A DNA stretch of 25,363 nt, taken from positions 1 through 25,363 of the IMG/VR virus record IMGVR_UViG_3300009159_000287, one strand, 5' to 3'. Position 1 is the first letter of the stretch, and every line of letters starts with the position of its first letter. Shown here one piece after another: positions 6,811 through 25,363 of this stretch. The notes under the pieces are model-generated. The model worked only from the letters and a program-made list of their open reading frames with translations, searched no databases and was not told the origin of the DNA. This DNA is from a virus. The translations under genes and the position numbers were made by a program.

Positions 6811-8874
6811 ATGGCAGACCGTTTAAGAGTTACCGAACTTGATTTTGATACAATCAAGTCGAATTTAAAGACCTTTTTAAATCAACAAACAGAGTTTACA
6901 GACTATGACTTTGAAGGGTCTGGCCTTTCTGTTTTGTTGGATATCTTGGCATACAACACCCACTATAATGCTTATTACCTTAACATGGTTGCAAATGAGT
7001 CATTTTTAGATACCGCTTTGTTGCGTGATTCTGCCGTTTCACACGCAAAGACTTTGGGTTACACACCATATTCAACTACTGCACCAACTGCAACTATTGA
7101 TTTTCAAGTTGCATCTGGTTCAACAACACCAGCAACATTAACTATTCCATCAGGATTTGCTTTCTTATCAAATCAAATTGATAATAAATCCTACAATTTT
7201 GTTGTTTTGGATGACACAACAGTTACCAAATCAAATACAAGTTATTATTTCGATAACCTTGAAATTCGTGAAGGTCAATTAATTACTTATAGCTTTGGAT
7301 ATAATGCAGCTTCAAATCCAAAACAAATTTTTACATTACCTGATGAAGGTATTGATACTAACACAATTAAAGTTGTAGTAACACCACAATCTGCCAATAC
7401 TGCAACTTCCACTTATAGCAAAGTTACTGATGTTTTGGATGTTTCTAATACATCTGAAGTTTATTTCTTACAAGAAAGTCGCAACGGAAAATATGAAATT
7501 TATTTTGGTAACGATGATGTAGGTAAATCTTTGCCTGATGGTGCAACCGTATCTGTAAGATATTTGGTTACCAATGGTACTGCGGCCAATAAAGCAAATA
7601 ATTTTATTGCAACTGCTACACTAACAGATTCTTTAAGTGTTTCTCAAACAAATTTTACAATTACTCCAATCATTTCTGCTTCTGGTGGTTCAGACCGTGA
7701 ATCTGTTGATAATATTAAATTCTCAGCACAAGCACAATATGCCACACAGAATCGTTTGGTTACAGTAAAAGATTATGAATCATATATTAAAAATCATTAC
7801 CCAAGTGTCGATTCAATTTCTGTTTGGGGTGGAGAAGATGAGATTCCTAAAGTTTATGGTAAAGTATATGTAGCTTTAAAACCAAAAGCAAATTATTATA
7901 TTTCTGAAACAGAGAAAGCTAGAATTGTATCGGAAATTATTAATCCAAAATCTATTATTTCGGTACAAACTGAAATTCGTGATGCCGAATATTTGTATTT
8001 GTTGTTGGAAAATGATGTCCAATATGACCCAAGAAAAACAACATCTACTGAAACTGCATTAAAACAATCTATTAAACAAGCAATATTAAATTATAATACC
8101 ACTTATTTAAATAAATTTGGAACAATATATGTTGCTTCTGATGTTGAGGCTGACATTAATCAAGTAAATCCTAATGCTGTTGTTGGTGTAAGAACAACAA
8201 CAAGAGTTCAAAAAAGATTTCAACCACAATTAGATAAATCAGTAAGTTATGAAATTAAATTTAATGTTCCTTTGCATCGTGGTACAATTACCAATAAATT
8301 AACATCAACACAATTTGCAGTATATGATTTAACAGGAACATTAAGAACGGCGTTGTTTGAAGAAACACCACAATCTTATACAGGCGTTTCGGAAATTCAA
8401 ATTACAAATCCTGGTTCAAGCTACACAACAACTCCAACAGTAACAATTAATGGTGATGGAACTGGTGCAACTGCTGAAGCTGTAATTGTTAATGGAAGAA
8501 TTCAAACAATTAATATCACAAATCGTGGTACAGATTATACTCGTGCTACTGTTTCAATTACAGGCGGTAGTGGTTACGGCGCAGAAGCTGTAGCTGTTAT
8601 TGATGGTAGAACAGGCACACTTAGAACAATTTACTACGATACATTAGCACAAAGACAGATTATTAATTCAAATGCTGGAACAATTGACTACAATAATGGT
8701 ATTGTTACTATTAATAATATTCGTTTTATAAGAATTGATTCGAATGATGAATTAATTCGCCTATCAATTGAGATTGAAAAAGGTTATCTTCAATCGACAA
8801 GAGATACAATTCTTACTATTGATGTGGATGATCCAACTGCCATATCAACAACATTAGAAAAAATTAGCAAATAA
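6811..8874 (+). CDS. 6: Baseplate wedge protein gp6
   Basis: This 687-residue protein forms the inner wedge ring, by analogy with T4 gp6 (660 residues) and baseplate protein J. The N-terminus carries the recognised motif: LRVTELDFDTIKSNLKTFL, then FTDYDFEGSGLSVLLDILAYNTHYNAYYLNMVANESFLDTA (about 5-70). The segment around 170-310 contains SRNGKYEIYFGNDDVGKSLPDG and SGGSDRESVDNIKFSA, typical of gp6/J-like proteins. Residues of about 525-605 hold an inserted double copy of a short beta module (NPGSSYTTTPTVTINGDG, then a second copy with GTDYTRATVSITGGSG). That stretch is not part of the T4 gp6 core and also occurs in the next genes. The gene overlaps the next by one base (TAATG). Confidence 0.92.
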   Translation: MADRLRVTELDFDTIKSNLKTFLNQQTEFTDYDFEGSGLSVLLDILAYNTHYNAYYLNMVANESFLDTALLRDSAVSHAKTLGYTPYSTTAPTATIDFQVASGSTTPATLTIPSGFAFLSNQIDNKSYNFVVLDDTTVTKSNTSYYFDNLEIREGQLITYSFGYNAASNPKQIFTLPDEGIDTNTIKVVVTPQSANTATSTYSKVTDVLDVSNTSEVYFLQESRNGKYEIYFGNDDVGKSLPDGATVSVRYLVTNGTAANKANNFIATATLTDSLSVSQTNFTITPIISASGGSDRESVDNIKFSAQAQYATQNRLVTVKDYESYIKNHYPSVDSISVWGGEDEIPKVYGKVYVALKPKANYYISETEKARIVSEIINPKSIISVQTEIRDAEYLYLLLENDVQYDPRKTTSTETALKQSIKQAILNYNTTYLNKFGTIYVASDVEADINQVNPNAVVGVRTTTRVQKRFQPQLDKSVSYEIKFNVPLHRGTITNKLTSTQFAVYDLTGTLRTALFEETPQSYTGVSEIQITNPGSSYTTTPTVTINGDGTGATAEAVIVNGRIQTINITNRGTDYTRATVSITGGSGYGAEAVAVIDGRTGTLRTIYYDTLAQRQIINSNAGTIDYNNGIVTINNIRFIRIDSNDELIRLSIEIEKGYLQSTRDTILTIDVDDPTAISTTLEKISK
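8398..8617 (+). repeat. Two tandem beta modules (GxGY-type) inside gp6
   Basis: Two adjacent copies of a roughly 36-residue unit with the pattern I-x-N-x-G-x-x-Y, then strand, then V-x-I-x-G-x-G-x-G-A-x-A-x-A. They lie near residues 526-602 of gp6. The copies are diverged in DNA but clear in protein. Confidence 0.6.
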
Positions 8875-12948: not shown

Positions 12949-15900
12949 ATGTCGTTAAATACTAATTTTAATGTCAACCCATACTATGACGACTTCGATG
13001 AAGCTAAAAAGTTTCTTCGTCTATTGTTTAAGCCAGGTTATGCTGTTCAAGCTCGTGAGTTAACACAATTACAAACTCTTTTACAGAGCCAAATTAGTCG
13101 TTTTGGTAATAATGTTTTCAAAAATGGTTCTCTTGTAACTGGTGGTCAAACTTTTCTTCAAAATGCTACATACTTAAAATTAGATACCGATTATTCTGGT
13201 TTAGCTGTTTCTGTAACAAATTTTAATGGTAAAACAATTACTGATTCCACAGGAACAAAGCGTGGTGAAGTTGTTGTTGTTTATGATGCTGATTCTGGTA
13301 CAGGTGATCCAAAAACACTATTAGTCAAACAGATTTATGGTACTGCTTTTGCTTCTGGAGATAAAATTTCCACAGTTGAAACTGCGCCTGCATATGCTAA
13401 TGTTTCAACATCTGGTGTTGGAACAGGCCAAACATTTTCTGTAAATGATGGTGTATTCTATTACGATGGTTTCTTCATTAAGAACGATGCACAAACTATT
13501 GCCACATCAAAATATAATAACGCAACAGCTAATGCAAGAATTGGTTTTGAAGTTACTGAAGCTGTTGTAGAATATACACAAGACACTTCGTTGTTGGATC
13601 CTGCTCAAGATGCTTCAAACTTTCAAGCACCTGGTTCCGACCGCTACAAAATTTCATTAGTATTATCAACTCGTGCTTTAGATTCTACCGATGATACACA
13701 ATTTATTGAACTTGCTCGTGTTGAACAAGGCGCATTAACCTATTCTGTAAAATACCCATTGTATGCGGTATTAGAAGATACTCTTGCTCGTAGAACTTAC
13801 GATGAATCTGGTAACTACACAGTAAGACCATTTAAACTTTCATTAGACACAAGTGCTGCTAATACCGCAAAAGCCAATGTTGTATTGTCGCCAGGTAAAG
13901 CATATGTCTATGGTTACGAACACGAAACAATTGGACCAACAACAATTACATTTAATAAACCAAGAACAACAGATAATGTTTCTAATAAACGCATTTCTTC
14001 TGACTATGGTTATTATGTTTATTCAAATACACACTTTGGTACATTTCCAATTAATAGTTTAGCTACTATTGATTTGCATTGTGTATCAAATGGTTCAATT
14101 AATGTTTCATCTACAAACACAATTACTAATACAAAGATTGGTACTGCTCGTGTAAAAAGTATTGAATTTGAAGCAGCTTCAAACACATCAAACTCTGCTA
14201 CATATGAATATCGCACTTATTTGTTTGATGTTAATGTTTCTTCATTAACAGGTAATGTATTAACATCTAATACCACAACAATTACAATTGGCAATACTGG
14301 TGCTGGACAATATTATTCTACACAGAACAATGCATATACTGGTGCTAAACTTCGTATCATTGCTGGTCCTGGTGCTGGTGAAACTCCAAAATATATTACA
14401 AATTATAATGGCGCTACTGGTGTTATCACATTATCTCAACAATTTATTGCTACAACAAATACAACATCAACTTGGTCTATTGACTTTGAAGTTAATGATA
14501 TTAAATCATTAGCTGTTACAAGCGGAACAACTCGTGTTGCAGCTGCTGATATTGATGGTGCTTCTAAAGACCCAGCAACAACTTACGATGACACATTTAT
14601 TTCAGATACTAAGTTAGAGCCACTATTATTGCCACTTGGTCAAAATTATGTTGCTAGTGGAACTATTGGTAATTTGTCTTTCTCATATAAGAGAATGTAT
14701 GAAGCACAAGCTTTTTCATCTTCAATATCACCTACACTTTCAGTAGGTACTGGTGAAGCCATTTCTGCTGCTGTAAGCACTTCAAGTAAAAACGAAAAAT
14801 ATACAGTTGTTGTAACAGCTTCTGGTACTTCGCCATATACTGTTGGTCAAATTATTCCTTCTAATCTATTTACAGTAGATACAGGCACTCGTAAAATTAC
14901 TGTTACTTCTGGTAACAATATGACTGCTAATATTGTTGCAACGATTGATTCTTCAAATCCATCAGCAAAAACAAAAACTTTTGCAACTGCAAATGCAACC
15001 GTTCAAACAAGTGGCGGCACAGCGTTGTTTGCTAATAACGGCGTAATTCTTTATGCTTCACAAGGCCAAACTCACATTATGGCCAATACTGTTGTTAAAA
15101 CACCTGCAACTGCACAATCATTATTTGTGTCTGATGTTGTAGCCGTTTCTTCAGTATTAGATTTTAATGGCAATCAAATTACAGTTGCTAATGCTGCTAT
15201 TGCAACAGATATTACTTCACGCTATACATTAGATAATGGTCAAAGAGATTCTTATTATGACCATGCTTCTATTAGTTTGAAAGCTGGTGTAGCAACTCCT
15301 GTTGGACCCCTAGTCGTTAAATATAACCGATTCAGTTCGTCTGGTGCTGGTTTCTTTGATGTTGATTCTTATAGTGGGTATGATTATGGTTCTATTCCTA
15401 CATATTCATCTGTTGGTGCAGGCAACAATTACCAACTTTCGGATTGCCTTGATTTTAGGCCTGTCCGAGCAACGCCAACAAGCACAACAACAGCAAACAC
15501 CGTCACATTCGATGTTGATTCAACCACGACTGGTCCTAAGATTCCTGAGAATGGTTCCGACATCATTCTAAACTATCAATACTACTTACCAAGAATTGAC
15601 AAGGTAGTATTAAACAAAGACAGAACATTTGAGGTAGTTCAAGGCATTCCTTCCCTAACTCCTGTTGAACCAAAAGACAAAGATGGGGCAATGACTTTGT
15701 ATACCTTGCGTGAACCTGCGTATGTTGCCAATACATCTTTAATTAGAGTTGAATACAAAGACAATCGCCGTTATACAATGCGTGATATTGGTGCAATCGA
15801 CAAGCGTGTTGAAAACTTAGAATATTATACATCATTGTCATTGCTAGAACAATCTGCTGTTAACAAACAAGATTTAACAATACTTGATAGCACAAATTTA

Positions 15901-18891
15901 CCACGATTTAAGAATGGTATTTTGGTTGATGCATTTGATGGCCACTCTGTAGCTGATGTGGCAAAAAATGATTACTTATCGTCTATTGACCCTAAGAACA
16001 AAGAACTGCGTCCATCATTTAACATATCTTCACATTTATTAACATTTGATTCCGCCACTTCAAGCAACTTTATGAAGAACGGTCCTTTGGTTACTGCTAA
16101 TGCTGCACACTCAGCATTTATTGACCAAAACAAAGCTTCCAAATCAATCAATGTTAATCCATTCAATGTGATTAACTTCTTAGGTAAAATTCAATTAGAC
16201 CCAGCGTCTGATATTTGGATTGACACTAATAAACAACCAGATGTTCTTGTTAATCTGCAAGGTGACAAAGATGCTTGGAATATAATTACTGCCAACGCTT
16301 ACTCATATGAGTGGGGTGATTGGTCAACATATTGGACTGGAACAACAACTGACAGTCCTGCATATCGTGGTTGGTTAGGTGCAACAGGCCGATATGAAGT
16401 GGTTTACGGTACAGAAACAACAACAACATCATCATCACAAACAAGAACTGGTGTTAAAACAACTGTTGTTCCAACCACAATTACTCAATCTTTGGGTGAC
16501 CGTGTTGTTGATGTGTCTATTATTCCTTACATGAGAAATCGTAATGTGTTATTTACTGGTTCTGATTTTAAACCAGATACCACATTATATTCTTTCTTTG
16601 ATAATGTTAATATTGACAAGTATGTTGCTCGTGCTAACAAATTTAAAATTGCCACAAATAATCTTGGTTTCAGAACTGAGATTGGCAATCCAGAAACAGT
16701 TTCAGTAGTTAATACTGCAACTAGCACAACTAATGCTACTGCATATGTTGTTCGCACATCTAATACTGAAGCATTTATTATTAGTGTTAACCCATCTTCT
16801 GCACTTAACGGTTCTACAATGAACTTGGTTGGTTCTTCAACAGGAACAACTGTTCGTGTTGTTGGCTATGACCACTACTCTGGTAATGCAGCCTCTGCTA
16901 CTGGAAATACTATTGTATTGAATGTTGATGCGTTTGGTGCTAATAATACTACTGATTATGTTGGTTCACCAATCTATATTGTTAGTGGAACTGGTGCTGG
17001 CCAACAAGGCACAATTACTACTTACACAGCTGCTACACGAAATGTAGCAATCTCTGGTGCATGGACAACTATACCATCTACTGATTCTATCTACTCAATT
17101 GGTAATCTAAAAACTACCATGGCAGGCGATGTTGCTGGTGTGTTTAATATTCCTTCTGCAACATTCCGTGTTGGTGAAAAGAACTTTAGAATGGTTGACA
17201 ATTCAACCGGCGATTTAGGTTCTTCATCTACAAACGGTGACGCTACATTCTTTGCACAAGGCATTTTACAGTCAACAGAGAATACTATTATCTCTACAAC
17301 TGTACCAACAATTCAAAGAGCTTCTGTAACCGACAATCGTGTTGTTTCTTCTACAACAAGTCGCCAAGTTGTGATTGGTTATTGGGATCCACTTGCACAA
17401 ACATTCTTAATATCACCAGTAAATTACCCACAAGGTATTTTCCTGTCTAAGGCTCGTTTTGCATTTAAATCGAAAGATACAACAGTACCAGTTACATTAC
17501 AGGTTCGTCCTGCAACAAATGGTTACCCATCATCTTCTATAATCTATCCTTACTCAACAGTTACTTTGACACCAGATAAAGTTAATACAACTACATCTCC
17601 AAACTTAGATACTGCTAGTAAATATACAGAGTTTGAGTTTGATGCACCAATCTACTTGCAGCCAGGTGAACATTCATTTGTATTGTTGGCTAACTCTAAC
17701 AAGTATGAGGTGTATGTTGCTGAAATTGGTAAACTTGACACAGTAAGTGGTCGTCAAATTTCTGAACAACCATATGGCGGTTCATTGTTCTTATCACAAA
17801 ACGGTTCTACATGGACTGCTGACCAAAATTCAGACCTCATGTTTAGATTGTTCCGTTATGTGTTTAGTACCGATCCTGTTCAAGCAACATTTAAGATTAA
17901 TTATCCAAGTTCAAATACAGTCTATGACTTAACACACTTGATTACCTCAGATGTTACTGTTGCTAATACTTCTTTATCTTACCAGTTTAATTCTGAAAAA
18001 TCAACTGGTGGTATGACTGGATATAAAAACATTACTCCATTAACCGACTTCCAAATGAATGATGGTTTTGGCCGCCGTGTATTAAACCCAGCAACAGGTA
18101 ATACAACATTAATTGTTAAGGCTACATTACAAACATCCAATCCTGATATTTCTCCATTTTTAGACACATCACGATATGGTGTAATTGCCGTTGAAAACAT
18201 TATCAATGATTTGCCATTGAGTAATTCTGGTATTACATTAACAAGTGGTGGAACAGGTTACTCAACTAACGCCAACGCCGTTGTAACTATTACAGGTGGC
18301 GGAGGTTCAGGTGCAACTGCGGCTGCCGTTGTTACTGCTAATGTGGTAACATCTATTTACTTGACAAATCCTGGTTCTGGTTATGAAACATCTCCAACAT
18401 TTACATTGGTTGATGCTAACACAACTCCGGGTACTGGTGCAACAATTACCTATAACGGTGAAGATAAGAAATCTGGTGGTAACTCTTATGTTCGTTACCT
18501 AACTCGTAAAGTGGTTCTTGCTGACGGATTTGATTCTGGTGACTTGCGTGTTTATTTGACCGCATACAAACCTGCAGCTGCAAACATTCGTGTATATTAC
18601 AAGTTACTGTCTGCTGCTGATACTGCAACATTTGATGATAAAACTTGGCAATTGATGACTCAGTTAAGTAATGCAAACTTTGCTTCTGCTGGTCCTGATG
18701 ATTACAGAGAAATTGCATATGCGCCAGGTGTTGGTGGTTCTGCCAATAATTCTGTAAACTATACGACTAGTTCAACTGCATATAATTCATTTAGAACATT
18801 TGCTATTAAGATTGTATTGACTGGAACTGATACTACTGATGTTCCTAAGGTTCGTGATTTCCGTGCAATTGCTTTACCAGCCGGTGCATAA
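12949..18891 (+). CDS. DUF4815-type giant structural protein, 1980 residues
   Basis: This is the largest protein of the window and probably forms a peripheral baseplate or fibre-attachment part. The N-terminus is diagnostic for DUF4815: FNVNPYYDDFDEAKKFLRLLFKPGYAVQARELTQLQTLLQSQISRFGNNVFKNGS (about 6-60). The family is known from T4-like marine phages, with no settled function. Later segments include a GxGAGETPKYITNYN module near 451-515, an Ig-like Ser/Thr/Val-rich stretch near 595-665, and a second copy of the first module (GTGAGQQGTITTYT) near 1318-1385. Further on are GYWDPLAQTFLIS near 1480, two GxGY modules near 1760-1840, and a C-terminal FRTFAIKIVLTGT with VPKVRDFRAIALP (about 1947-1976). 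No membrane segment or enzyme motif is visible. It may replace the T4 gp9-gp10-gp11-gp12 region, none of which I could find here, but that is inference. Confidence 0.75.
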   Translation: MSLNTNFNVNPYYDDFDEAKKFLRLLFKPGYAVQARELTQLQTLLQSQISRFGNNVFKNGSLVTGGQTFLQNATYLKLDTDYSGLAVSVTNFNGKTITDSTGTKRGEVVVVYDADSGTGDPKTLLVKQIYGTAFASGDKISTVETAPAYANVSTSGVGTGQTFSVNDGVFYYDGFFIKNDAQTIATSKYNNATANARIGFEVTEAVVEYTQDTSLLDPAQDASNFQAPGSDRYKISLVLSTRALDSTDDTQFIELARVEQGALTYSVKYPLYAVLEDTLARRTYDESGNYTVRPFKLSLDTSAANTAKANVVLSPGKAYVYGYEHETIGPTTITFNKPRTTDNVSNKRISSDYGYYVYSNTHFGTFPINSLATIDLHCVSNGSINVSSTNTITNTKIGTARVKSIEFEAASNTSNSATYEYRTYLFDVNVSSLTGNVLTSNTTTITIGNTGAGQYYSTQNNAYTGAKLRIIAGPGAGETPKYITNYNGATGVITLSQQFIATTNTTSTWSIDFEVNDIKSLAVTSGTTRVAAADIDGASKDPATTYDDTFISDTKLEPLLLPLGQNYVASGTIGNLSFSYKRMYEAQAFSSSISPTLSVGTGEAISAAVSTSSKNEKYTVVVTASGTSPYTVGQIIPSNLFTVDTGTRKITVTSGNNMTANIVATIDSSNPSAKTKTFATANATVQTSGGTALFANNGVILYASQGQTHIMANTVVKTPATAQSLFVSDVVAVSSVLDFNGNQITVANAAIATDITSRYTLDNGQRDSYYDHASISLKAGVATPVGPLVVKYNRFSSSGAGFFDVDSYSGYDYGSIPTYSSVGAGNNYQLSDCLDFRPVRATPTSTTTANTVTFDVDSTTTGPKIPENGSDIILNYQYYLPRIDKVVLNKDRTFEVVQGIPSLTPVEPKDKDGAMTLYTLREPAYVANTSLIRVEYKDNRRYTMRDIGAIDKRVENLEYYTSLSLLEQSAVNKQDLTILDSTNLPRFKNGILVDAFDGHSVADVAKNDYLSSIDPKNKELRPSFNISSHLLTFDSATSSNFMKNGPLVTANAAHSAFIDQNKASKSINVNPFNVINFLGKIQLDPASDIWIDTNKQPDVLVNLQGDKDAWNIITANAYSYEWGDWSTYWTGTTTDSPAYRGWLGATGRYEVVYGTETTTTSSSQTRTGVKTTVVPTTITQSLGDRVVDVSIIPYMRNRNVLFTGSDFKPDTTLYSFFDNVNIDKYVARANKFKIATNNLGFRTEIGNPETVSVVNTATSTTNATAYVVRTSNTEAFIISVNPSSALNGSTMNLVGSSTGTTVRVVGYDHYSGNAASATGNTIVLNVDAFGANNTTDYVGSPIYIVSGTGAGQQGTITTYTAATRNVAISGAWTTIPSTDSIYSIGNLKTTMAGDVAGVFNIPSATFRVGEKNFRMVDNSTGDLGSSSTNGDATFFAQGILQSTENTIISTTVPTIQRASVTDNRVVSSTTSRQVVIGYWDPLAQTFLISPVNYPQGIFLSKARFAFKSKDTTVPVTLQVRPATNGYPSSSIIYPYSTVTLTPDKVNTTTSPNLDTASKYTEFEFDAPIYLQPGEHSFVLLANSNKYEVYVAEIGKLDTVSGRQISEQPYGGSLFLSQNGSTWTADQNSDLMFRLFRYVFSTDPVQATFKINYPSSNTVYDLTHLITSDVTVANTSLSYQFNSEKSTGGMTGYKNITPLTDFQMNDGFGRRVLNPATGNTTLIVKATLQTSNPDISPFLDTSRYGVIAVENIINDLPLSNSGITLTSGGTGYSTNANAVVTITGGGGSGATAAAVVTANVVTSIYLTNPGSGYETSPTFTLVDANTTPGTGATITYNGEDKKSGGNSYVRYLTRKVVLADGFDSGDLRVYLTAYKPAAANIRVYYKLLSAADTATFDDKTWQLMTQLSNANFASAGPDDYREIAYAPGVGGSANNSVNYTTSSTAYNSFRTFAIKIVLTGTDTTDVPKVRDFRAIALPAGA

Positions 18892-18892
18892 T

Positions 18893-19123
18893 ATGTTTGC
18901 TAAAGTAAAAGACCACGACAATCTAGTAAGAGATATGCACTCCAAAGCTGTTCTAAATACAGATAGAGCTGGTTTGCAAGACTATATGCAAAAGAGAGAG
19001 ATGGCAAAAAAAGAAATCTCTGAAAAACTTGAAACAAAACAACGCTTAGCCAAAATAGAAGAAGAAATGTCTGAAATCAAAGCACTATTGCAAGATATAG
19101 CTAACATTAGGAAATACGGATAA
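18893..19123 (+). CDS. Small coiled-coil structural protein (76 residues)
   Basis: The start chosen is the ATG at 18893, one base after the stop of the giant gene. An upstream in-frame ATG at 18839 lies inside that gene and is less likely. The protein begins MFAKVKDHDNLVRDMHSKAVLNTD. The motif LVRDxxSKAxxNTD is familiar from small conserved genes next to structural genes in T4-like cyanophages and relatives. Residues of about 33-70 are a charged, heptad-like helix (KKEISEKLETKQRLAKIEEE, then MSEIKALLQDI) that should form a coiled coil. It overlaps the next gene by one to three bases (TAATG). The function is unknown. The position suggests a role in joining the large protein to a fibre. Confidence 0.75.
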   Translation: MFAKVKDHDNLVRDMHSKAVLNTDRAGLQDYMQKREMAKKEISEKLETKQRLAKIEEEMSEIKALLQDIANIRKYG

Positions 19124-19866
19124 TGGCGATTAATCAATTAACAACCGCCAATACCTTTCAACATTGGTTAGCGGCAACTCAAAATTTAATTGCAACCGCC
19201 AATACCCTTACTGATGGTAATGGCGCTTCGTTTGTTGCTAACACAAAACTAGACATTTCTGGTTCACAGGCTCAATTAAATGTTCGCACATCAGCCAGTA
19301 TCAATACTCTGTATGCAAACAATACAATCCTTGGTGGTTTTACTAATGTAACCACTCTGAATGTTTCAACTACTGGTTATATTGGTGGTGACTTAACTGT
19401 TGCTGGTAATGTAACAGTATCAGGAAACATTATTTTAGATTCAATTGGTTTTGATGATATCATCGCCAACGGTTCTATAACGGCTGCAAACAATCTTTCG
19501 ATTGGTGGTTTCACAATCATTACTGGTAATACAACCCTCAGTAATGTAACTGCAACATATGGTAATTTCTCAACCGCCAATATCACAATTTTAACAGGCT
19601 CTGCCAATACTGCACTATATAGCAATATTACAACGGCACAGGCCTTTGCAACTTCTGCTGGTTCATACGCTAACTCAGCATTTGTTCATGCTAATGCGGC
19701 CTTCTTACAGGCCAACACTCCAAGTTATACTGCTAACTCCGCAGCCTCGTATGGTAATAGTGCGTTTGCGGTGGCAAATAGTTCTTCAAGTTATGCGAAT
19801 AGCGCATTTTCCACAGCTAATACAGCCATTGATAACGCTGTTGCTTTGTCAATTGCACTTGGATAA
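19123..19866 (+). CDS. Ala/Asn-repeat tail-fibre-like protein
   Basis: This 247-residue protein opens with NQLTTANTFQHWLAATQNLIATANTLTDG, then beta-rich Gly/Thr/Val sequence (LTVAGNVTVSGNIILDSIG near 90-110; FTIITGNTTLSNVTATYGNF near 125-145). Residues of about 165-240 repeat units such as YANSAFVHANAAFLQAN, YGNSAFAVANSSSSYANSAF and STANTA. Such Asn/Ala/Ser repeats with the motif A-N-S-A-F are common in tail fibres of marine T4-like phages and are thought to form a rod. The gene starts on the stop of the coiled-coil gene. A clear end and a tandem promoter-like pair follow. I cannot say what it binds. Confidence 0.65.
   Translation: MAINQLTTANTFQHWLAATQNLIATANTLTDGNGASFVANTKLDISGSQAQLNVRTSASINTLYANNTILGGFTNVTTLNVSTTGYIGGDLTVAGNVTVSGNIILDSIGFDDIIANGSITAANNLSIGGFTIITGNTTLSNVTATYGNFSTANITILTGSANTALYSNITTAQAFATSAGSYANSAFVHANAAFLQANTPSYTANSAASYGNSAFAVANSSSSYANSAFSTANTAIDNAVALSIALG
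19655..19850 (+). repeat. Degenerate A-N-S-A-F repeats in the fibre protein
   Basis: At least four short units of about 10-14 residues carrying (Y/G)xNSAF or NxAFxxAN. The units are imperfect, and at DNA level they share only short GCxAAYWSYGCATTT-like patterns. Confidence 0.5.
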
Positions 19867-19877
19867 ATAGATAAATA
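19862..19877 (+). promoter_or_regulatory. Tandem late-promoter-like boxes (two GATAAATA)
   Basis: Two directly adjacent GATAAATA octamers, each one base off TATAAATA, lie across and just after the stop of the preceding gene, 24-31 bases before the next start. The spacing to the ATG at 19901 is suitable. A ribosome-binding AAGGA is at 19885-19889. Confidence 0.5.
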
Positions 19878-19900
19878 GAATATCAAGGATATAACACAAC

Positions 19901-20227
19901 ATGGCAAATACCTTTAAATCAACGGCTAATGTGAACATTGAAGTTACTTCAAATACTGTTTACACTTGTCCGTCTGCTACACAAACAACTCTGATTGGAA
20001 TGACTTTATCTAATAAGTCCAACGGCACGGTAACCGCAAATGTGTTCTTGCGCCGTTCGTCTGTTGACTATTCAATCATTTCTAATGCACCAATTCTGAC
20101 TGGTTCTTCTTTAGTTCCAATTGGTGGCGACCAAAAAGTTGTGTTGCAGGCAGCTGATTCAATTAAAATCACAACTAGTGCAAACAACGCAGTTGACACC
20201 ATCGTTTCATTACTAGAGATTGCATAA
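19901..20227 (+). CDS. Small beta-rich virion protein, paralogue of the 20906 gene
   Basis: This 108-residue protein has a simple beta pattern: NTVYTCPSATQTTLIGMTLSN near 18-38, then VFLRRSSVDYSIISNAPILTGSSL, then PIGGDQKVVLQAADSIKITT near 70-90 and a hydrophobic end IVSLLEIA. It resembles the gene at 20906 in order (N-terminal VYxxPxAT-type strand, middle strand around a PxxS motif, a late loop with AAD and a strand). Such small proteins are often found among fibre genes of marine T4-like phages. There is a usable AAGGA ribosome-binding site 11 bases before the ATG. Its exact role, fibre tip or decoration, is unknown. Confidence 0.6.
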   Translation: MANTFKSTANVNIEVTSNTVYTCPSATQTTLIGMTLSNKSNGTVTANVFLRRSSVDYSIISNAPILTGSSLVPIGGDQKVVLQAADSIKITTSANNAVDTIVSLLEIA

Positions 20228-20230
20228 TAA

Positions 20231-20902
20231 ATGGGATACTTAGGAAACTCATCGTTACCTTTTGACCCAACACGGTCATCTGGCAAACCACTAGATGCTG
20301 AGCGCTTTAGTGGTAATGGAAGCACAACTGCTTTCACACTATCAAGACCTGTTAATGATGTAACAGATATTGATTTATTTGTAGAGAATGTTCGTCAAGA
20401 ACCAACAGTCGCATATACTGTTGTTGGTACGGCACTCACATTTACTGAAGCTCCTCCTTCAGGTACAAATAATGTCTATTTGGTATATCGTAACTATGGC
20501 ACAGCACAAGTTCAGTTACCTGATGGTTCTGTTTCTTACGCTAAGTTATCTACAAACATTAAGCAATTCACACAAGATACTTTTACCGCAAACGGTACAG
20601 GTCAAACATTTACATTACAAGAAACACCTGCATCAGCAAACTCCATTATGGTAACAGTTGACGGTGTTTATCAAATTTCACCAGCGCATTATAGTGTTAC
20701 TGGTACAACAATTACATTTACTTCTGCACCTCCTGCATCTTCTAATGTTTCAGTTAGACATTTAGGCTTCAGAACATCAACGACAGTTACGGCATTGGCC
20801 GCAGGTTCAGTAGGAACAGTTGAATTGGCAGACGGCGGTGTAACAGATAATAAATTGGCAGTTTCACCCCTAACAAATATTTTAATGTTATCAGGAATTT
20901 AA
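20231..20902 (+). CDS. Tail-fibre protein with a duplicated NGTG-type beta domain
   Basis: This 223-residue protein has two copies of one domain. Copy one is about residues 26-88 (FSGNGSTTAFTLSRPV, then DLFVENVRQEP, then LTFTEAPPSGTNNVYLVYR). Copy two is about 118-178 (FTANGTGQTFTLQETP, then MVTVDGVYQISP, then ITFTSAPPASSNVSVRHLG). Between and after them are DGSVSYAKLSTN (98-109) and DGGVTDNKLAVS near residue 200, the D-G-x-V/I-x-x-x-K-L motif common in phage fibres. The same domain also appears once in the gp7-position protein. The gene starts 3 bases after its neighbour's stop. Confidence 0.7.
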   Translation: MGYLGNSSLPFDPTRSSGKPLDAERFSGNGSTTAFTLSRPVNDVTDIDLFVENVRQEPTVAYTVVGTALTFTEAPPSGTNNVYLVYRNYGTAQVQLPDGSVSYAKLSTNIKQFTQDTFTANGTGQTFTLQETPASANSIMVTVDGVYQISPAHYSVTGTTITFTSAPPASSNVSVRHLGFRTSTTVTALAAGSVGTVELADGGVTDNKLAVSPLTNILMLSGI

Positions 20903-20905
20903 TCA

Positions 20906-21244
20906 ATGGCACAATCATTTAAACGACTTGGCGCAATTAACCCATCTGCAAATACGCAGACTAATGTGTATGTTGTGCCTGCAGCAACTTCAGCAGTAAT
21001 CTCAACAATTACTATTTGTAATCAAACAGCTTCTAATGCCTCTTATAGTTTGGCATTAATGAATTCTTCGGAATTTAATGCAGCAGCTCCAACTGCAACA
21101 TACATCATTCGTGGTGGTGTTGTTCCTGCAGCTGATACAATTGCTATTACTTTAGGTCTTACCGCAAATGCTGGTATGGTTTTAGCAGCTAACACAAGTT
21201 CTTCTTCAATTTCTATTGGTGCATTTGGTACTGAGGTAGTATAA
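20906..21244 (+). CDS. Small beta-rich virion protein, paralogue of the 19901 gene
   Basis: This 112-residue protein has the order NTQTNVYVVPAATSAVISTITICNQTA near 17-43, then ATYIIRGGVVPAADTIAITLG near 70-95, then a late AGMVLAANTSSSSISIGAFG. I recall this pattern, with P-A-A-T, I-C-N-Q-T and V-P-A-A-D-T, from small structural genes in T4-like cyanophages. It shares the layout with the 19901 gene but not its DNA. It overlaps the glycine-rich gene by one base (TAATG). The function is unknown. Confidence 0.6.
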   Translation: MAQSFKRLGAINPSANTQTNVYVVPAATSAVISTITICNQTASNASYSLALMNSSEFNAAAPTATYIIRGGVVPAADTIAITLGLTANAGMVLAANTSSSSISIGAFGTEVV

Positions 21245-22113
21245 TGAGTGTCCGCAGATTAGGCCGTCCTGTTGGTTATGACTATCCTGTGGGATTATCA
21301 GGTAGAGGAGTAACTTCAGTTGATTATCTCGTGGTTGCTGGTGGTGGCGCAGGTGGTTCTTCTGCTGGTGCTGGATATTACGGAGGCGGCGGTGGTGCTG
21401 GAGGTTTTGCAACAGGCAGTAGTTTTTCTGTTACAGACAACACATCATATGCTGTAACAGTAGGCGCTGGCGGAACATATCTATTAAATGCTAGAGGTTT
21501 AAACGGATCAAATTCAACTTTCTCATCTGTAACTGCGATTGGCGGTGGCGGAGGTGGCGGCGGTGGAGATACTAATCCAGGACAATTTTCTGGCGCTTCA
21601 GGTGGATCAGGAGGCGGTGGAAATAGTGGTGCTGGGCCAGGTGGTTCAGGAACTCCAGGTCAAGGAAATAATGGCGGCACAGGTGCAGGTACACAAGGTG
21701 TAACAGTTCAAGCAGGTGGTGGCGGTGGCGGCGCAGGCGGGGCTGGCGGTAGTGCTCCAAATCCTAATGGCCAAACTGGCGGTGCAGGTGGTATTGGTTC
21801 AACATCTTCATATTCAGGCACATCAACATATTATGCTGGCGGTGCTGGCGGCAATGCAAACGTGACAGGTGGTGCTGGAACTCCAAGCACAGGTGGTGGC
21901 GGTGCAGGTGGTGCATCTGGCGGAAATGCTGGAACAGTAAATACAGGTGGCGGCGGCGCCGGTGCAAACACTGGTGGTTCAGGTATTGTAATAATTCGTT
22001 ATTCGGGAACACAAGGTGCAACTGGCGGAACAGTAACATCATCTGGTGGTTACACTATTCACACATTTACTGGTGATGGTGCATTTATCACCGGTCAATA
22101 TACTATTAATTAA
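21244..22113 (+). CDS. Glycine-rich adhesin, copy 1
   Basis: This 289-residue protein starts with RPVGYDYPVGLSGRGVTSVD. It then has the glycine-rich domain opening VDYLVVAGGGAGGSS, a strand with YAVTVGAGGTY, and long runs such as GGGGGGGGDTN and GGGGGAGGAGG. It ends IVIIRYSGTQGATGGTVTSS followed by YTIHTFTGDGAF (about 245-280). This is the glycine-rich domain found in many marine phage tail fibres. The repeated Gly-Gly-Gly with small residues suggests polyglycine type II helices, as in the tip of phage S16 gp38, though that comparison is inference. No signal or membrane segment is visible. It is followed by a paralogue, so it probably arose by tandem duplication. The reverse strand shows Pro-rich open frames that are only shadows. 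Confidence 0.75.
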   Translation: MSVRRLGRPVGYDYPVGLSGRGVTSVDYLVVAGGGAGGSSAGAGYYGGGGGAGGFATGSSFSVTDNTSYAVTVGAGGTYLLNARGLNGSNSTFSSVTAIGGGGGGGGGDTNPGQFSGASGGSGGGGNSGAGPGGSGTPGQGNNGGTGAGTQGVTVQAGGGGGGAGGAGGSAPNPNGQTGGAGGIGSTSSYSGTSTYYAGGAGGNANVTGGAGTPSTGGGGAGGASGGNAGTVNTGGGGAGANTGGSGIVIIRYSGTQGATGGTVTSSGGYTIHTFTGDGAFITGQYTIN

Positions 22114-22126
22114 GGTTATTTGAGCA

Positions 22127-23035
22127 ATGGGTGATACAACTAAACAATTTTCACAAACAAATTTCAGACCAACTGGATATTCATATCCTGTAGGATTAAG
22201 TGCATCTTTACCATTTGTAACAAAAATAGATTATCTTGTAGTAGCTGGAGGCGGTGGCGGAGGTAGTTACTCTGGCGGAGGCGGTGGCGCTGGAGGTTTT
22301 GCAACAGGACTATCATATCCAATTGTTGCTGGTACATCATATAGCGTAAGTGTTGGTGGTGGCGGTGCAGGCACATTAGGTGGATCTCCTGCAGGTAGTG
22401 GTGCTAGTGGAAGTAATTCACAATTTGCAACAATTCCAGCATCCCTTGGCGGTGGTGGCGGTGGTGCAAACAATATTGTTGGTTCTAACGGTGGTTCTGG
22501 CGGTGGTGCAGGTGGTTCAACTGTTTCTGCAAAATCTGGAGGAACAGGAACCGCTGGCCAAGGAAATAGTGGCGGCGCTAACTATAATTCATCGCCATAC
22601 AATGGCGGTGGAGGTGGCGGTGCAGGTTATGTTGGTGCTACTGGTGCATCTCCAAATGGCGGCGCAGGTTTAGCATCATCATTATCTGGATCACCATCAA
22701 CATATGGTGGAGGCGGAGGCGGAGGAACACGCTCTGGTGGCACAGCTGGTACTGGCGGCACTGGCGGCGGTGGTAATGGAACTGCTAGCACAAATGCTGG
22801 ATCACCAGCAGGTAACGGACAAGCTGGCACATCCAACACAGGCGGTGGCGGTGGAGGCAGTGATGACGGCTTAACATCTTATGGTGGTAATGGTGGATCA
22901 GGTGTTGTAATTATTCGTTATTCTGGTACACAGAGAGCAGTTGGTGGTACTGTTACAAGTTCTGGCGGCAACACCATTCATACATTTACGGGTGATGGAA
23001 CATTTACTGCAAATGTAACTTACTCCATCAACTAA
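22127..23035 (+). CDS. Glycine-rich adhesin, copy 2
   Basis: This 302-residue protein is a paralogue of the previous gene. It shares RPTGYSYPVGLSASL, VTKIDYLVVAGGGGGGS, the YSVSVGGGG strand, glycine-rich runs and the ending VVIIRYSGTQRAVGGTVTSSGGNTIHTFTGDGTF. The two ends are well conserved in protein, but synonymous positions have diverged, which fits an old duplication. The central glycine-rich runs differ more in order and length. The start at 22127 follows TGAGCA with little ribosome-binding signal. It probably forms another tip on a fibre or an alternative tip. The 13-base gap to the preceding gene shows no promoter. Confidence 0.75.
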   Translation: MGDTTKQFSQTNFRPTGYSYPVGLSASLPFVTKIDYLVVAGGGGGGSYSGGGGGAGGFATGLSYPIVAGTSYSVSVGGGGAGTLGGSPAGSGASGSNSQFATIPASLGGGGGGANNIVGSNGGSGGGAGGSTVSAKSGGTGTAGQGNSGGANYNSSPYNGGGGGGAGYVGATGASPNGGAGLASSLSGSPSTYGGGGGGGTRSGGTAGTGGTGGGGNGTASTNAGSPAGNGQAGTSNTGGGGGGSDDGLTSYGGNGGSGVVIIRYSGTQRAVGGTVTSSGGNTIHTFTGDGTFTANVTYSIN

Positions 23036-23043
23036 CATAAATA
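23036..23043 (+). promoter_or_regulatory. T4-like late promoter box (CATAAATA) before the C1q-fibre cluster
   Basis: CATAAATA lies just after the stop of the glycine-rich gene, 26 bases before the start at 23070. The spacing allows a short leader. It would drive the small fibre-tip cluster that fills the rest of the window. Confidence 0.5.
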
Positions 23044-23069
23044 AAAGAATTAATAAGAGAAAAATATAG

Positions 23070-23348
23070 ATGCCAATTCAACAGATTACATCCGGAATCA
23101 TATCAGATAATGCAGTTGTTGCTGCTGATATTGCTGATGGTTCAATTACCTCTGCTAAGTTAGCTGCAGGTGCTGGTGGTCAATTTATTGATACACAAAC
23201 AGTTCATGTGATGTATTATAACGCACAGAATGTTACAGCAAACTTAACTGTATCAGCAAATCAAAATGCGTTTACTGCGGGACCACTCACTATTGATGCC
23301 CCATACTCAGTAACATTGAATGCTGGTTCTACTTGGGTAATTCTATAA
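23070..23348 (+). CDS. Small fibre protein with SITSAKL motif (92 residues)
   Basis: The protein starts PIQQITSGIISDNAVVAADIAD and then has DGSITSAKLAAG (about 23-34), the D-G-x-I-x-x-x-K-L motif of phage fibres. The rest is short beta: NVTANLTVSANQNAFTAGPLTI, then PYSVTLNAGSTWVIL. It probably acts as a fibre shaft or connector. The next gene starts on its stop codon (TAATG at 23346-23350), so they are probably translated together. The function is inferred from the motif and position only. Confidence 0.65.
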   Translation: MPIQQITSGIISDNAVVAADIADGSITSAKLAAGAGGQFIDTQTVHVMYYNAQNVTANLTVSANQNAFTAGPLTIDAPYSVTLNAGSTWVIL

Positions 23349-23878
23349 TGGCAAATTTAAAATTAAAAAATCCTGCTGGCGGTTCGTTAAACTTAGTAAG
23401 TGCTGATGGTGCTTCAGATTTAACAGTTACATTTCCAGCAACAACTGGTACTGCAATGGTTAGTGGCAATATGCCAGCGTTTAGTGCTTATCCTACCGCA
23501 GGAGTATCTTGTGCATCAGGCACTGATACAAAAGTTCTTTTTCAAACAGAGGACTTTGACACAAACAATAATTTTGCTTCTAGCCGCTTTACCCCAACTG
23601 TAGCTGGTTACTATCTTGTTATTGGAATGGCACGGTTTGGTCCAATTACAGCAACCCTTACTATTGGTTCAATATTTGTAAATGGTAGCGTTTATTCTAG
23701 GGGAAGTGGAGCTTCTTGCTCATCATCTTATACGTATAACCAATGTTCAGCTATTGTTTATCTAAACGGCTCAACTGACTATGTTGAATTTTATGCTTAT
23801 CAAAACTCTGGCTCAGCACAAACTACCGACTACTACACAGCTTATAAATTTACTGGTTCATTGTTGAGGGCAGCATAA
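23348..23878 (+). CDS. C1q-like receptor-binding fibre protein
   Basis: I chose the ATG at 23348, which overlaps the preceding stop, rather than the in-frame ATG at 23333. The protein is 176 residues. Residues 1-45 form a fibre-type stem (MANLKLKNPAGGSLNLVS, then TFPATTGTAMVSG). Then comes a C1q-like head: PAFSAYPTAGVSCASG near 46-60, KVLFQTEDFDTNNNFASSRFTPTVAGYYLVIG near 65-95, IFVNGS, YLNGSTDYVEFYAY near 145-158, and a final FTGSLLRA. This order, ending with Gly-Tyr-Tyr, N-G-S and a closing strand, is characteristic of C1q/TNF-type heads in phage fibres. A second, incomplete C1q-type head starts at 24896. It probably binds the host surface. Confidence 0.75.
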   Translation: MANLKLKNPAGGSLNLVSADGASDLTVTFPATTGTAMVSGNMPAFSAYPTAGVSCASGTDTKVLFQTEDFDTNNNFASSRFTPTVAGYYLVIGMARFGPITATLTIGSIFVNGSVYSRGSGASCSSSYTYNQCSAIVYLNGSTDYVEFYAYQNSGSAQTTDYYTAYKFTGSLLRAA

Positions 23879-24057
23879 TGTTAATGGAAAAAATTAAATC
23901 CCTATACCCATCATTAGTTGATGATGATTTTTCACCTTTTCGTGGAACAATTCATTTGCAAAACGATTCAGATGGCAAAGGTGATTATATCGCCAAGTGG
24001 GAACACCCTACTTTAACTAGACCAACACAAGCTCAACTCGATGAGGTAACAGAATAA
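23878..24057 (+). CDS. Short fibre-chaperone-like protein (59 residues)
   Basis: This reading frame is too short for common length cut-offs. It starts MLMEKIKSLYPSLVDDDFSP and ends YIAKWEHPTLTRPTQAQLDE followed by VTE. An in-frame ATG at 23884 is an alternative start. Both flanks overlap: its ATG sits on the stop of the C1q gene (TAATG) and its stop carries the next ATG (TAATG), which supports translation. The C-terminal W-x2-P-x5-T-x2-Q-x-D pattern is the same as in the protein at 24590 and is typical of small tail-fibre assembly chaperones. Compared with that 100-residue protein, this one lacks the C-terminal half. It may be a half-length chaperone or a shortened remnant. Confidence 0.6.
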   Translation: MLMEKIKSLYPSLVDDDFSPFRGTIHLQNDSDGKGDYIAKWEHPTLTRPTQAQLDEVTE

Positions 24058-24593
24058 TGCCTTTAGTTCTCAATAGTTCATCAATCACAGGATTAGCTTC
24101 TTCTGGTGGTTTTTCATCCAGACAAACTGGTGAAGTGCTGCAAGTTGTGAGTGCAAATACAAGAACATACTCTACAACATCGACCACAGGCTCTTGGATA
24201 GATAGTGGAATTTCAGCGTCTATTACACCAACAAGTTCATCTAGTAGGATTTTAGTTATAGCTGCTCCTAGTGTGTTAATAGATAGAGTTTCAAGTTTCG
24301 ACAATCTTGCGTTTTTAATTGTAGATAGAAGCGGAACAAAACTAGCTGCAAGTTTTACCAATTTAAGAGCTTACGATAGAGGTGGATCAGGAAATCAGCT
24401 TCAAACTAAACCATCTGTTTCATTTGTAGATAGTCCTTCAACAACAAGTAGTATAACATATAAAATTTATTCTTGGTTGCCTTCATCTGGAGCAATTACT
24501 GTTTCTTTTAATTCAACAGAAGGAGCGAGTCCATCAGTTGATGGACTTACAGAGTGTGCCAGCACATTAACTTTAATGGAGATTGCAGGATGA
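24057..24593 (+). CDS. Fibre-tip protein of the VLQVVxANTxxxxSTTS type (178 residues)
   Basis: The N-terminus has SITGLASSGGFSSRQTGEVLQVVSANTRTYSTTSTT (about 8-45), then GISASITPTSSSSRILVIAAPSVL near 51-74. I recognise the pattern GxVLQVVxA, then S-I-T-P-T-S-S-S-S-x-I-L-V, from tail-fibre-type proteins of many marine phages. The rest is beta (KLAASFTNLRAYDRGG, SVSFVDSPSTTSSITYKIYSWLP, then SFNSTEG). The start lies on the stop of the 59-residue gene, and the next gene begins with ATGA on this stop. The coupling with chaperone-like genes suggests a fibre tip with its own assembly helper. The binding partner is unknown. Confidence 0.65.
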   Translation: MPLVLNSSSITGLASSGGFSSRQTGEVLQVVSANTRTYSTTSTTGSWIDSGISASITPTSSSSRILVIAAPSVLIDRVSSFDNLAFLIVDRSGTKLAASFTNLRAYDRGGSGNQLQTKPSVSFVDSPSTTSSITYKIYSWLPSSGAITVSFNSTEGASPSVDGLTECASTLTLMEIAG

Positions 24594-24892
24594 TTATTAC
24601 TAAAATAAAAGCAATCTTATCTCTTGTTCCAAATGCTCAAGTCAATATTTATGGTAATGATGTTCAATGGGTTAATCCTGTTATTGCTCCAGTAACTAAC
24701 GAACAGATTGACAATGAACTTCTTCGTCTTACAGCAGAATACGAAGCCAAGCAATATCAAAGAAATCGTGCTTTAGAATACCCATCATACACAGATTACC
24801 TTGACGGTGTAGTGAAAGGTGACCAAGAACAAATTGATGCCTATATTGCAGCCTGCCAGGCCGTTAAGACTAAATATCCAAAACCAGAGTAA
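24590..24892 (+). CDS. Tail-fibre assembly chaperone-like protein (100 residues)
   Basis: I start it at the ATG at 24590, which overlaps the stop of the previous gene (ATGA). An upstream in-frame ATG at 24554 would overlap it by more and is less likely. The N-terminal half has DVQWVNPVIAPVTNEQID (about 24-41), which aligns with the 59-residue protein. The C-terminal half has LLRLTAEYEAKQYQRNRALE followed by YPSYTDYLDGVVKGD, then a helix ending VKTKYPKP. The string RxxEYPSxxDYLDGxVKGD is known from small chaperone-like genes next to fibre genes in marine phages. The role is probably to help assemble the neighbouring fibre tips. Confidence 0.7.
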   Translation: MIITKIKAILSLVPNAQVNIYGNDVQWVNPVIAPVTNEQIDNELLRLTAEYEAKQYQRNRALEYPSYTDYLDGVVKGDQEQIDAYIAACQAVKTKYPKPE

Positions 24893-24895
24893 ACT

Positions 24896-25363
24896 ATGAG
24901 CGTCTTAAAATTAAATCAAATACAAACAGCTAGTGGCGTCATTATGGCTAACCTTAATTCCAGCGGAGCAAATGCTGGAATTCAATTAGCATCCAACTTA
25001 GCGCCAGCGTTTAGTGCTTACATGACAACAAATCAAACACTAGCTTATAACTCGGCTGCAAAACTTTCTTTTAATGCAAAAGAATTTGATACTGCTAGTT
25101 GTTTTAATACAACCAATTATCGCTTTACACCAACTATAGCTGGCTATTATCAAATTAACAGTTCTATGATGTGGACTGGAACAGCAGCTCGTAATTATTA
25201 TGTTGGTTTTTATATATACAAAAACGGCTCAAATATTAGAGCCACGCTTCAATCTTTTGCTCTTGGTACAGGCACCGACAGCGTAATAGTTGTGACAGGT
25301 CTTATATATATGAACGGCTCAACTGATTATTTGGAGAGTTATGGTTATCAAGTTGATTACACA
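24896..25363 (+). CDS. Second C1q-like fibre head (partial, runs off the window)
   Basis: This gene starts at ATG 24896, three bases after the chaperone stop, and has no stop before the window edge; 156 codons are visible. It begins MSVLKLNQIQTASGVIMANL, then NAGIQLASNLAPAFSAYMTT. The head continues with LSFNAKEFDTASCF, then YRFTPTIAGYYQIN, FYIYKNGS and GLIYMNGSTDYLESYGYQVD. This is the same C1q-like order as at 23348. The two genes share the DNA string GCCAGCGTTTAGTGCTTA (18 bases), and both have AACGGCTCAACTGA before TAT. They are paralogues. The end of the domain and the stop lie outside the window. Confidence 0.75.
   Translation, partial: MSVLKLNQIQTASGVIMANLNSSGANAGIQLASNLAPAFSAYMTTNQTLAYNSAAKLSFNAKEFDTASCFNTTNYRFTPTIAGYYQINSSMMWTGTAARNYYVGFYIYKNGSNIRATLQSFALGTGTDSVIVVTGLIYMNGSTDYLESYGYQVDYT

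Follow-up and report, generated by a model that had tools for sequence, protein, structure and literature searches.

The question raised by this locus is why, at the end of the fibre region of a T4-like aquatic phage, genes for fibre tips alternate with very small genes, and which of these parts belong together. The window (the whole stretch of DNA analysed, 25,363 bases) is a fragment of a virus record. Upstream of the fibre array lie baseplate genes of T4-like type; the one at 6811-8874 is similar to the baseplate wedge proteins of Pelagibacter phage HTVC008M (41.6%) and Methylophilales phage Melnitz (39.6%). The array sits at the end of the fibre region and comprises a C1q head, a 59-aa XkdW-family protein (X), a VLQVV head (T), a 100-aa helper (H) and a second C1q head, all on the + strand (Table 1). 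The order, overlaps and positions given in an earlier note, made from the sequence alone, were confirmed for all five ORFs. The stop codon of the preceding 92-aa fibre-type gene overlaps the C1q-1 ATG (TAATG), the C1q-1/X junction is of the same form, and the T gene and H overlap by ATGA.

Table 1. Features of the fibre-head array, with positions in the window
Feature	Position	Strand	Basis or remark
Short fibre-type protein before the array, 92 aa	23070..23348	+	phrog_5342, E=5e-8; C-terminus like phage tail-fibre C-termini
C1q-1 gene, entire	23348-23878	+	ORF
C1q-1 N-terminal anchor, ~42 residues	23348..23472	+	anchor kind common to several head classes in relatives
C1q-1 C1q-like head	23473..23878	+	opens at PAFSAY motif with first 18-mer copy (23473-23490)
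Helper X, 59 aa, XkdW family	23878..24057	+	PF09636; PDB 2HG7; C1q-to-X pairing
T gene, entire (VLQVV tip)	24057-24593	+	ORF; TAATG overlap with X
T gene N-terminal anchor, ~24 residues	24057..24128	+	ORF and cross-locus anchor comparison
T gene VLQVV-type head	24129..24593	+	C-terminal TLMEIAG; same family as PDB 9EFK orf22 C-terminal head
Helper H, 100 aa	24590..24892	+	phrog_9114; partner of T heads and some other heads
C1q-2 gene, cut by contig end	24896-25363	+	ORF; 3 nt downstream of H
C1q-2 anchor	24896..25002	+	within the tract 99.95% identical to the sister contig; the two diverge at 24987
C1q-2 C1q-like head, cut off by contig end	25003..25363	+	second 18-mer copy (25003-25020); 91% DNA identity to L169 head

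The array does not stop where the window does. A sister contig, IMGVR_UViG_3300027782_000181 (L002/L082), matches the window at 99.95% identity over 11.1 kb (13878 to 24987) and extends about 7.7 kb beyond the split. Its downstream order is C1q head, XkdW-like 54-mer, 395-aa head, 60-aa helper, 414-aa head and 57-aa helper, after which come more fibre genes and a small protein of 85 aa. The extension adds a third head class, which has a 57-60-aa helper of its own. The largest arrays contain nine units (L091). The alternation therefore goes on past 25363, the extension that the earlier note had proposed to check, and the arrangement named there as speaking against a cassette (unrelated genes downstream, single copies in relatives) is not what the sister contig holds. 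The longest inverted repeat in the L082 array was 41 nt at 71% and none was near-perfect; an invertible fibre cassette of the Mu G segment type was rejected on this basis. Upstream of the array, the window encodes two adjacent glycine-rich fibre proteins (Gly_rich_2; 21244-22113 and 22127-23035) with near-identical ends (GGTVTSSGG.TIHTFTGDG.F). From their sequences they appear to have arisen by tandem duplication, with divergence of the middle parts; L082 has a third copy, which starts at 18022.

Three head classes were defined. Assignment to C1q is weak for single genes and firm for the family profile, which matches solved C1q domains: E-values were 4e-14 for adiponectin and about 1e-9 for C1q-like proteins (1.5e-9 for C1q-like 2). 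PF00386 was matched at E<=0.1 by 19 of the 32 C1q members (best 1e-8). The T alignment matches the C-terminal 170 residues of the 658-residue orf22 in PDB 9EFK (5e-26), a protein that occupies 18 chains of that entry; no literature on PDB 9EFK or the orf22 tail fibre was found. The third class, NRI, comprises the NRIINGAM...SAEL heads, to which the 395-aa head belongs. Shared C-terminal strands of the heads carry F.G.LvR.A, TLMEIA and SAEL. No relatedness between C1q and T heads was detected. A scan of viral contigs with the T head alone recovered only the sister contig, because T-head patterns are too variable.

The two C1q genes of the window share the run gccagcgtttagtgctta (23473-23490 and 25003-25020), which codes for the conserved PAFSAY motif opening the C1q head. 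The earlier note had drawn attention to this identity. The match is real, and its value as a sign of duplication was not upheld: runs of at least 18 bases are shared by 22.6% of C1q gene pairs from different loci and by 22/77 from the same locus (p = 0.14). Since genes of different loci share such runs about equally often, a recent C1q duplication was rejected, and the 18-base identity is a marker of the anchor/head junction.

The helpers of families X, H and K are short proteins of 57-100 aa; the label chaperone-like that the earlier note gave to the 59-mer and the 100-mer was a guess. X is a member of the XkdW family by both profile and solved fold. Window X scores 25.5 bits against PF09636 (cut-off 24.6), which 44 of 46 X relatives also match, and it matches PDB 2HG7 in sequence (E=2e-4) and in fold (probability 1.00, TM 0.59). 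XkdW was the only match in the fold search with X. The PHROG annotation 'tail fiber assembly protein' was matched by 13/57 X members (best 2e-4). Window H matched no Pfam family. Three of 48 H relatives match the XkdW profile (best 1e-16; window H itself does not), and Phage_tail_APC (PF16778) is matched by one of the 48 only (E=8e-4). H residues 5-45 align with X in profile comparison (E=4e-5, probability 71%), and on this ground the N-terminal part of H is probably related to X. The predicted model of H (pLDDT 95) consists of a helix and a beta-hairpin followed by four helices, that is, a variable N-terminal part of XkdW-like character and a conserved helical C-terminal part. Against the PDB, this model gave no match with E<=1, TfaMu included; in a viral structure library its top matches were uncharacterised phage proteins. 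No relatedness of K to X or H was detected.

Caudo_TAP was absent among the Pfam families listed for the X, H and K alignments (for H, the first 25 of 28 families). By sequence X, H and K are thus not Tfa proteins, and X and H are not TfaMu-like by fold. Their placement directly behind the fibre gene and their inheritance with the tip are Tfa-like. In each of the three families variability is greater in the N-terminal part than over the last 30 residues (mean identities.43/.65 for X,.34/.44 for H and.16/.35 for K). Stop/start overlaps with the preceding gene predominate (-1 in 50/91 X, -4 in 64/128 H). Besides X, H and K there is a small family M (85 aa, 18 members), whose genes lie behind assorted 187-453-aa fibre genes, for example at 16878-17135 in L082.

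Pairing was surveyed in 323 loci with head-only profiles (C1q, T and NRI, N-terminal segment removed) against profiles for X, H, K and M. The next helper was X behind C1q in 177 cases, H behind T in 125 and K behind NRI in 134, with no other helper found. Head class matched helper family in 446/446 unique units. Within the 122 loci holding at least two helper classes, 327/327 matched, against 145±11 on within-locus shuffling, and off-diagonal cases were zero at 95, 70 or 50% dereplication. Selection bias does not enter the 136/136 of the NRI/K pair, which never served as a search query. The same head-helper pairs are present in named phages, among them the cultured MEP401, HTVC010P, HTVC100P and P-SSP7.

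The earlier claim that each tip has its own helper holds at the level of helper family per head type. It does not hold for every head: about 19%, or roughly one in five, have no recognisable helper directly behind them, and tandem heads occur (TT..h, CC..x). Behind a head without a helper comes another head, an unrelated gene or nothing recognisable; where a small unrecognised gene follows a T or NRI head, its product mostly shows a weak likeness to H or K. T heads stand in tandem runs in L033, L036 and L166 (P-SSP7), with H behind one of them where seen, which suggests that one helper may serve several T heads in such runs. Read in the reverse direction, the gene before X codes for a C1q head with two exceptions, a weak C1q match and a head of another kind, and the gene before K nearly always codes for an NRI head. 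X and K are more specific than H, which is also found behind about 41 heads that belong to none of the three classes. A less common head type, with DAGSINI(M/L)YE at its end (L180 1126-1653; L270 5021-5698), has X behind one copy and H behind the other; nowhere else was there a sign that a single head type takes helpers of two families. A natural head-helper fusion was sought and a single candidate was found (L194), in which the end of the ORF overlaps both profiles; it was judged unconvincing.

Among members of one class, variation in the helper does not track variation in the head. Mantel and partial Mantel tests gave r near 0 for X and K; for H the covariation was weak, and the head gave no higher value than the anchor did. 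Allele-level co-evolution between head and helper was rejected accordingly. Helpers are matched to the head class and not to the allele.

Anchors, heads and helpers recombine at definite places. N-terminal segments were alike (>=60% over >=22 residues) in 563 gene pairs whose heads belong to different classes; without exception the helpers differed in accord with the heads. At the DNA level, 228 pairs shared an anchor at >=85% identity and parted close to where the head begins (median offset +6 nt; interquartile range -21 to +21); 18 of these carry heads of different classes. Window and L082 themselves have a common C1q-2 anchor and different heads. The converse was seen in 10 pairs, all C1q, in which similar heads sit on different anchors. 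Four of these have a helper in both members, and in them the similar stretch opens at the anchor/head junction and ends no more than 5 nt from the helper stop. Near-identical heads were found once with and once without X in two cases (L182/L226 and L210/L206); the contigs without X are short fragments. The backbones of L042 and L082 are 97.6% identical and their array order is equal, yet none of the five heads is the same: four genes diverge from the anchor onwards and an NRI gene in its last third. Helper ends and next anchors of the two are mostly 90-100% identical. The natural exchange unit is shown by these comparisons to be head plus helper, bounded by the anchor and the helper tail. Tips are indeed swapped, as the earlier note had supposed, between the window and L082, L169 and L042; what moves is the head domain with its helper, and the anchor stays behind. 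Putative homing endonucleases were seen in two head arrays, a GIY-YIG-like gene recognised by eye (L169, 2838-3482) and an HNH-like ORF (L143, 12184-12765) that runs into the end of a K helper. Such endonucleases could mobilise neighbouring heads.

The split from the sister contig lies less than 380 bases from the contig end, in a hypervariable region of the kind where assemblers break, as would be expected of an assembly chimera; the small ORFs might likewise be over-called. A local artefact of either sort is hardly credible. The window C1q-2 head goes on at 91% DNA identity in the independent contig L169. The match starts exactly at 25003, where the 18-mer begins; in L169 the anchor is unrelated and X comes next. 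The helper sequences are conserved, turn up in hundreds of loci as well as in cultured phages, and have a relative of solved structure.

Linkage could also arise with no functional tie between helper and head, from DNA contact and recombination at flanking conserved sequence. The variable blocks of L042 and L082 are flanked by conserved ones (helper C-terminal end plus next anchor), and allele-level covariation is missing, both as this explanation predicts. Physical adjacency alone would account for part of the head-helper linkage. The anchor/head and helper/next-gene junctions are equally tight, however, and are freely broken (Cramer's V 0.33 for helper/next gene, against 1.0 for head/helper), whereas the head/helper junction alone is never broken across classes in 446 units. 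We regard adjacency as the sole cause as very improbable.

The reading preferred here, to which we give a probability of about 75%, is that the locus is the start of a short-fibre gene array in a T4-like phage of aquatic bacteria, made up of exchangeable receptor-binding heads with class-specific, Tfa-like assembly chaperones. Each array gene would consist of an exchangeable N-terminal anchor and a head that presumably binds the receptor, and behind most heads would lie a very small helper gene, coupled to the head in translation and belonging to the family that the head class dictates. The helper would bind its own class of head during folding, probably through its variable N-terminal part, and may promote trimer formation by analogy with Tfa proteins and Pam3 gp25. 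A head lacking its helper would be poorly assembled; crossovers at the anchor/head junction and immediately past the helper gene would then move both, and head and helper would travel together for that reason. Phages could in this way trade binding heads and keep the anchor that fits their own tail. An assembly role for X, H and K is suggested because they are placed like Pam3 gp25 and V22 gp27 and have the more variable N-terminal parts. Since covariation within classes is lacking, recognition should use conserved features such as the C-terminal strands, and not the receptor-binding surface.

The same genetics would be expected if the helpers were virion proteins, small caps or accessory adhesins kept on the head tip that aid or shield receptor binding. 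Tfa of Mu and gp38 of S16 stay on the tip, caps have been proposed for Alteromonas phages (PMC10579305), and the variable N-terminal parts of the helpers resemble adhesive surfaces in this respect. Set against this are the helper's failure to vary with the head within a class and the absence from the mature fibre of Pam3 gp25 and V22 gp27, which occupy the same genomic position. Retention on the virion is considered unlikely.

Fibre-chaperone pairs and their transfer are already known, and the assembly-chaperone reading places the present array among them. Tfa of Mu, P2 and lambda, and T4 gp38, are like the helpers described here in lying directly downstream of the fibre gene, in travelling with the tip, and in having a variable N-terminal and a conserved C-terminal part. 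The helpers differ from them in size and family, and in that several helper families occur per genome, one per head class, in arrays with no invertible segment seen (L082). A parallel in domain type is gp24/gp25 of the freshwater myocyanophage Pam3, a TNF-like head (C1q superfamily) with a downstream chaperone (PMC9608196). The variable N-terminal domain of gp25 binds the head and its conserved C-terminal helical domain trimerises; the protein is absent from the virion, and the same distribution of variability is reported for Tfa (PMC9608196). This division into a variable N-terminal and a conserved, in H helical, C-terminal part recurs in the helpers, although X has no separate C-terminal helical domain. 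Pam3 has a single fibre and a single 162-aa chaperone where arrays are found here, and no sequence or fold match was detectable.

Alteromonas phages V22 (gp26/gp27) and A5 (gp8/gp9) also have a downstream chaperone, of the DUF4376 family, in a module common to unrelated phages (PMC7289586, PMC10579305). V22 gp27 is required for a working fibre and then leaves it (PMC7289586). There the entire recognition module moves, the chaperones are 195-240 aa and of another family, and no array of classes is present (PMC7289586, PMC10579305). PBSX XkdW (PF09636, PDB 2HG7) shares family and fold with X and has no assigned function in the literature covered. In metaviromic islands of marine phages, C1q heads and XkdW are both reported among the hypervariable genes, with XkdW given as of unknown function (PMC3909814); the pairing, the head classes and the exchange unit are not described in the part of that paper drawn on here. 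Their co-occurrence in the islands would be explained if head and helper form one moving unit. No description of the multi-class array, the class code or the head-plus-helper unit was found in the open-licence literature, an absence that counts as weak evidence.

A broader extrapolation is doubtful. It would have a plug-in code operating across aquatic phage lineages, in which helper families define head classes that any anchor accepts, several heads are built together per virion, the helpers stay as tip caps, and a new receptor is gained through one imported pair.

On the preferred reading of class-specific assembly chaperones, XkdW, a protein with a solved structure and no assigned role, gains a testable function, as do two other families of small proteins, which annotations commonly label hypothetical. 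Natural module boundaries are located, head plus helper being the unit that evolution moves between phages, and the receptor-binding parts of uncultured aquatic phages become simpler to predict.
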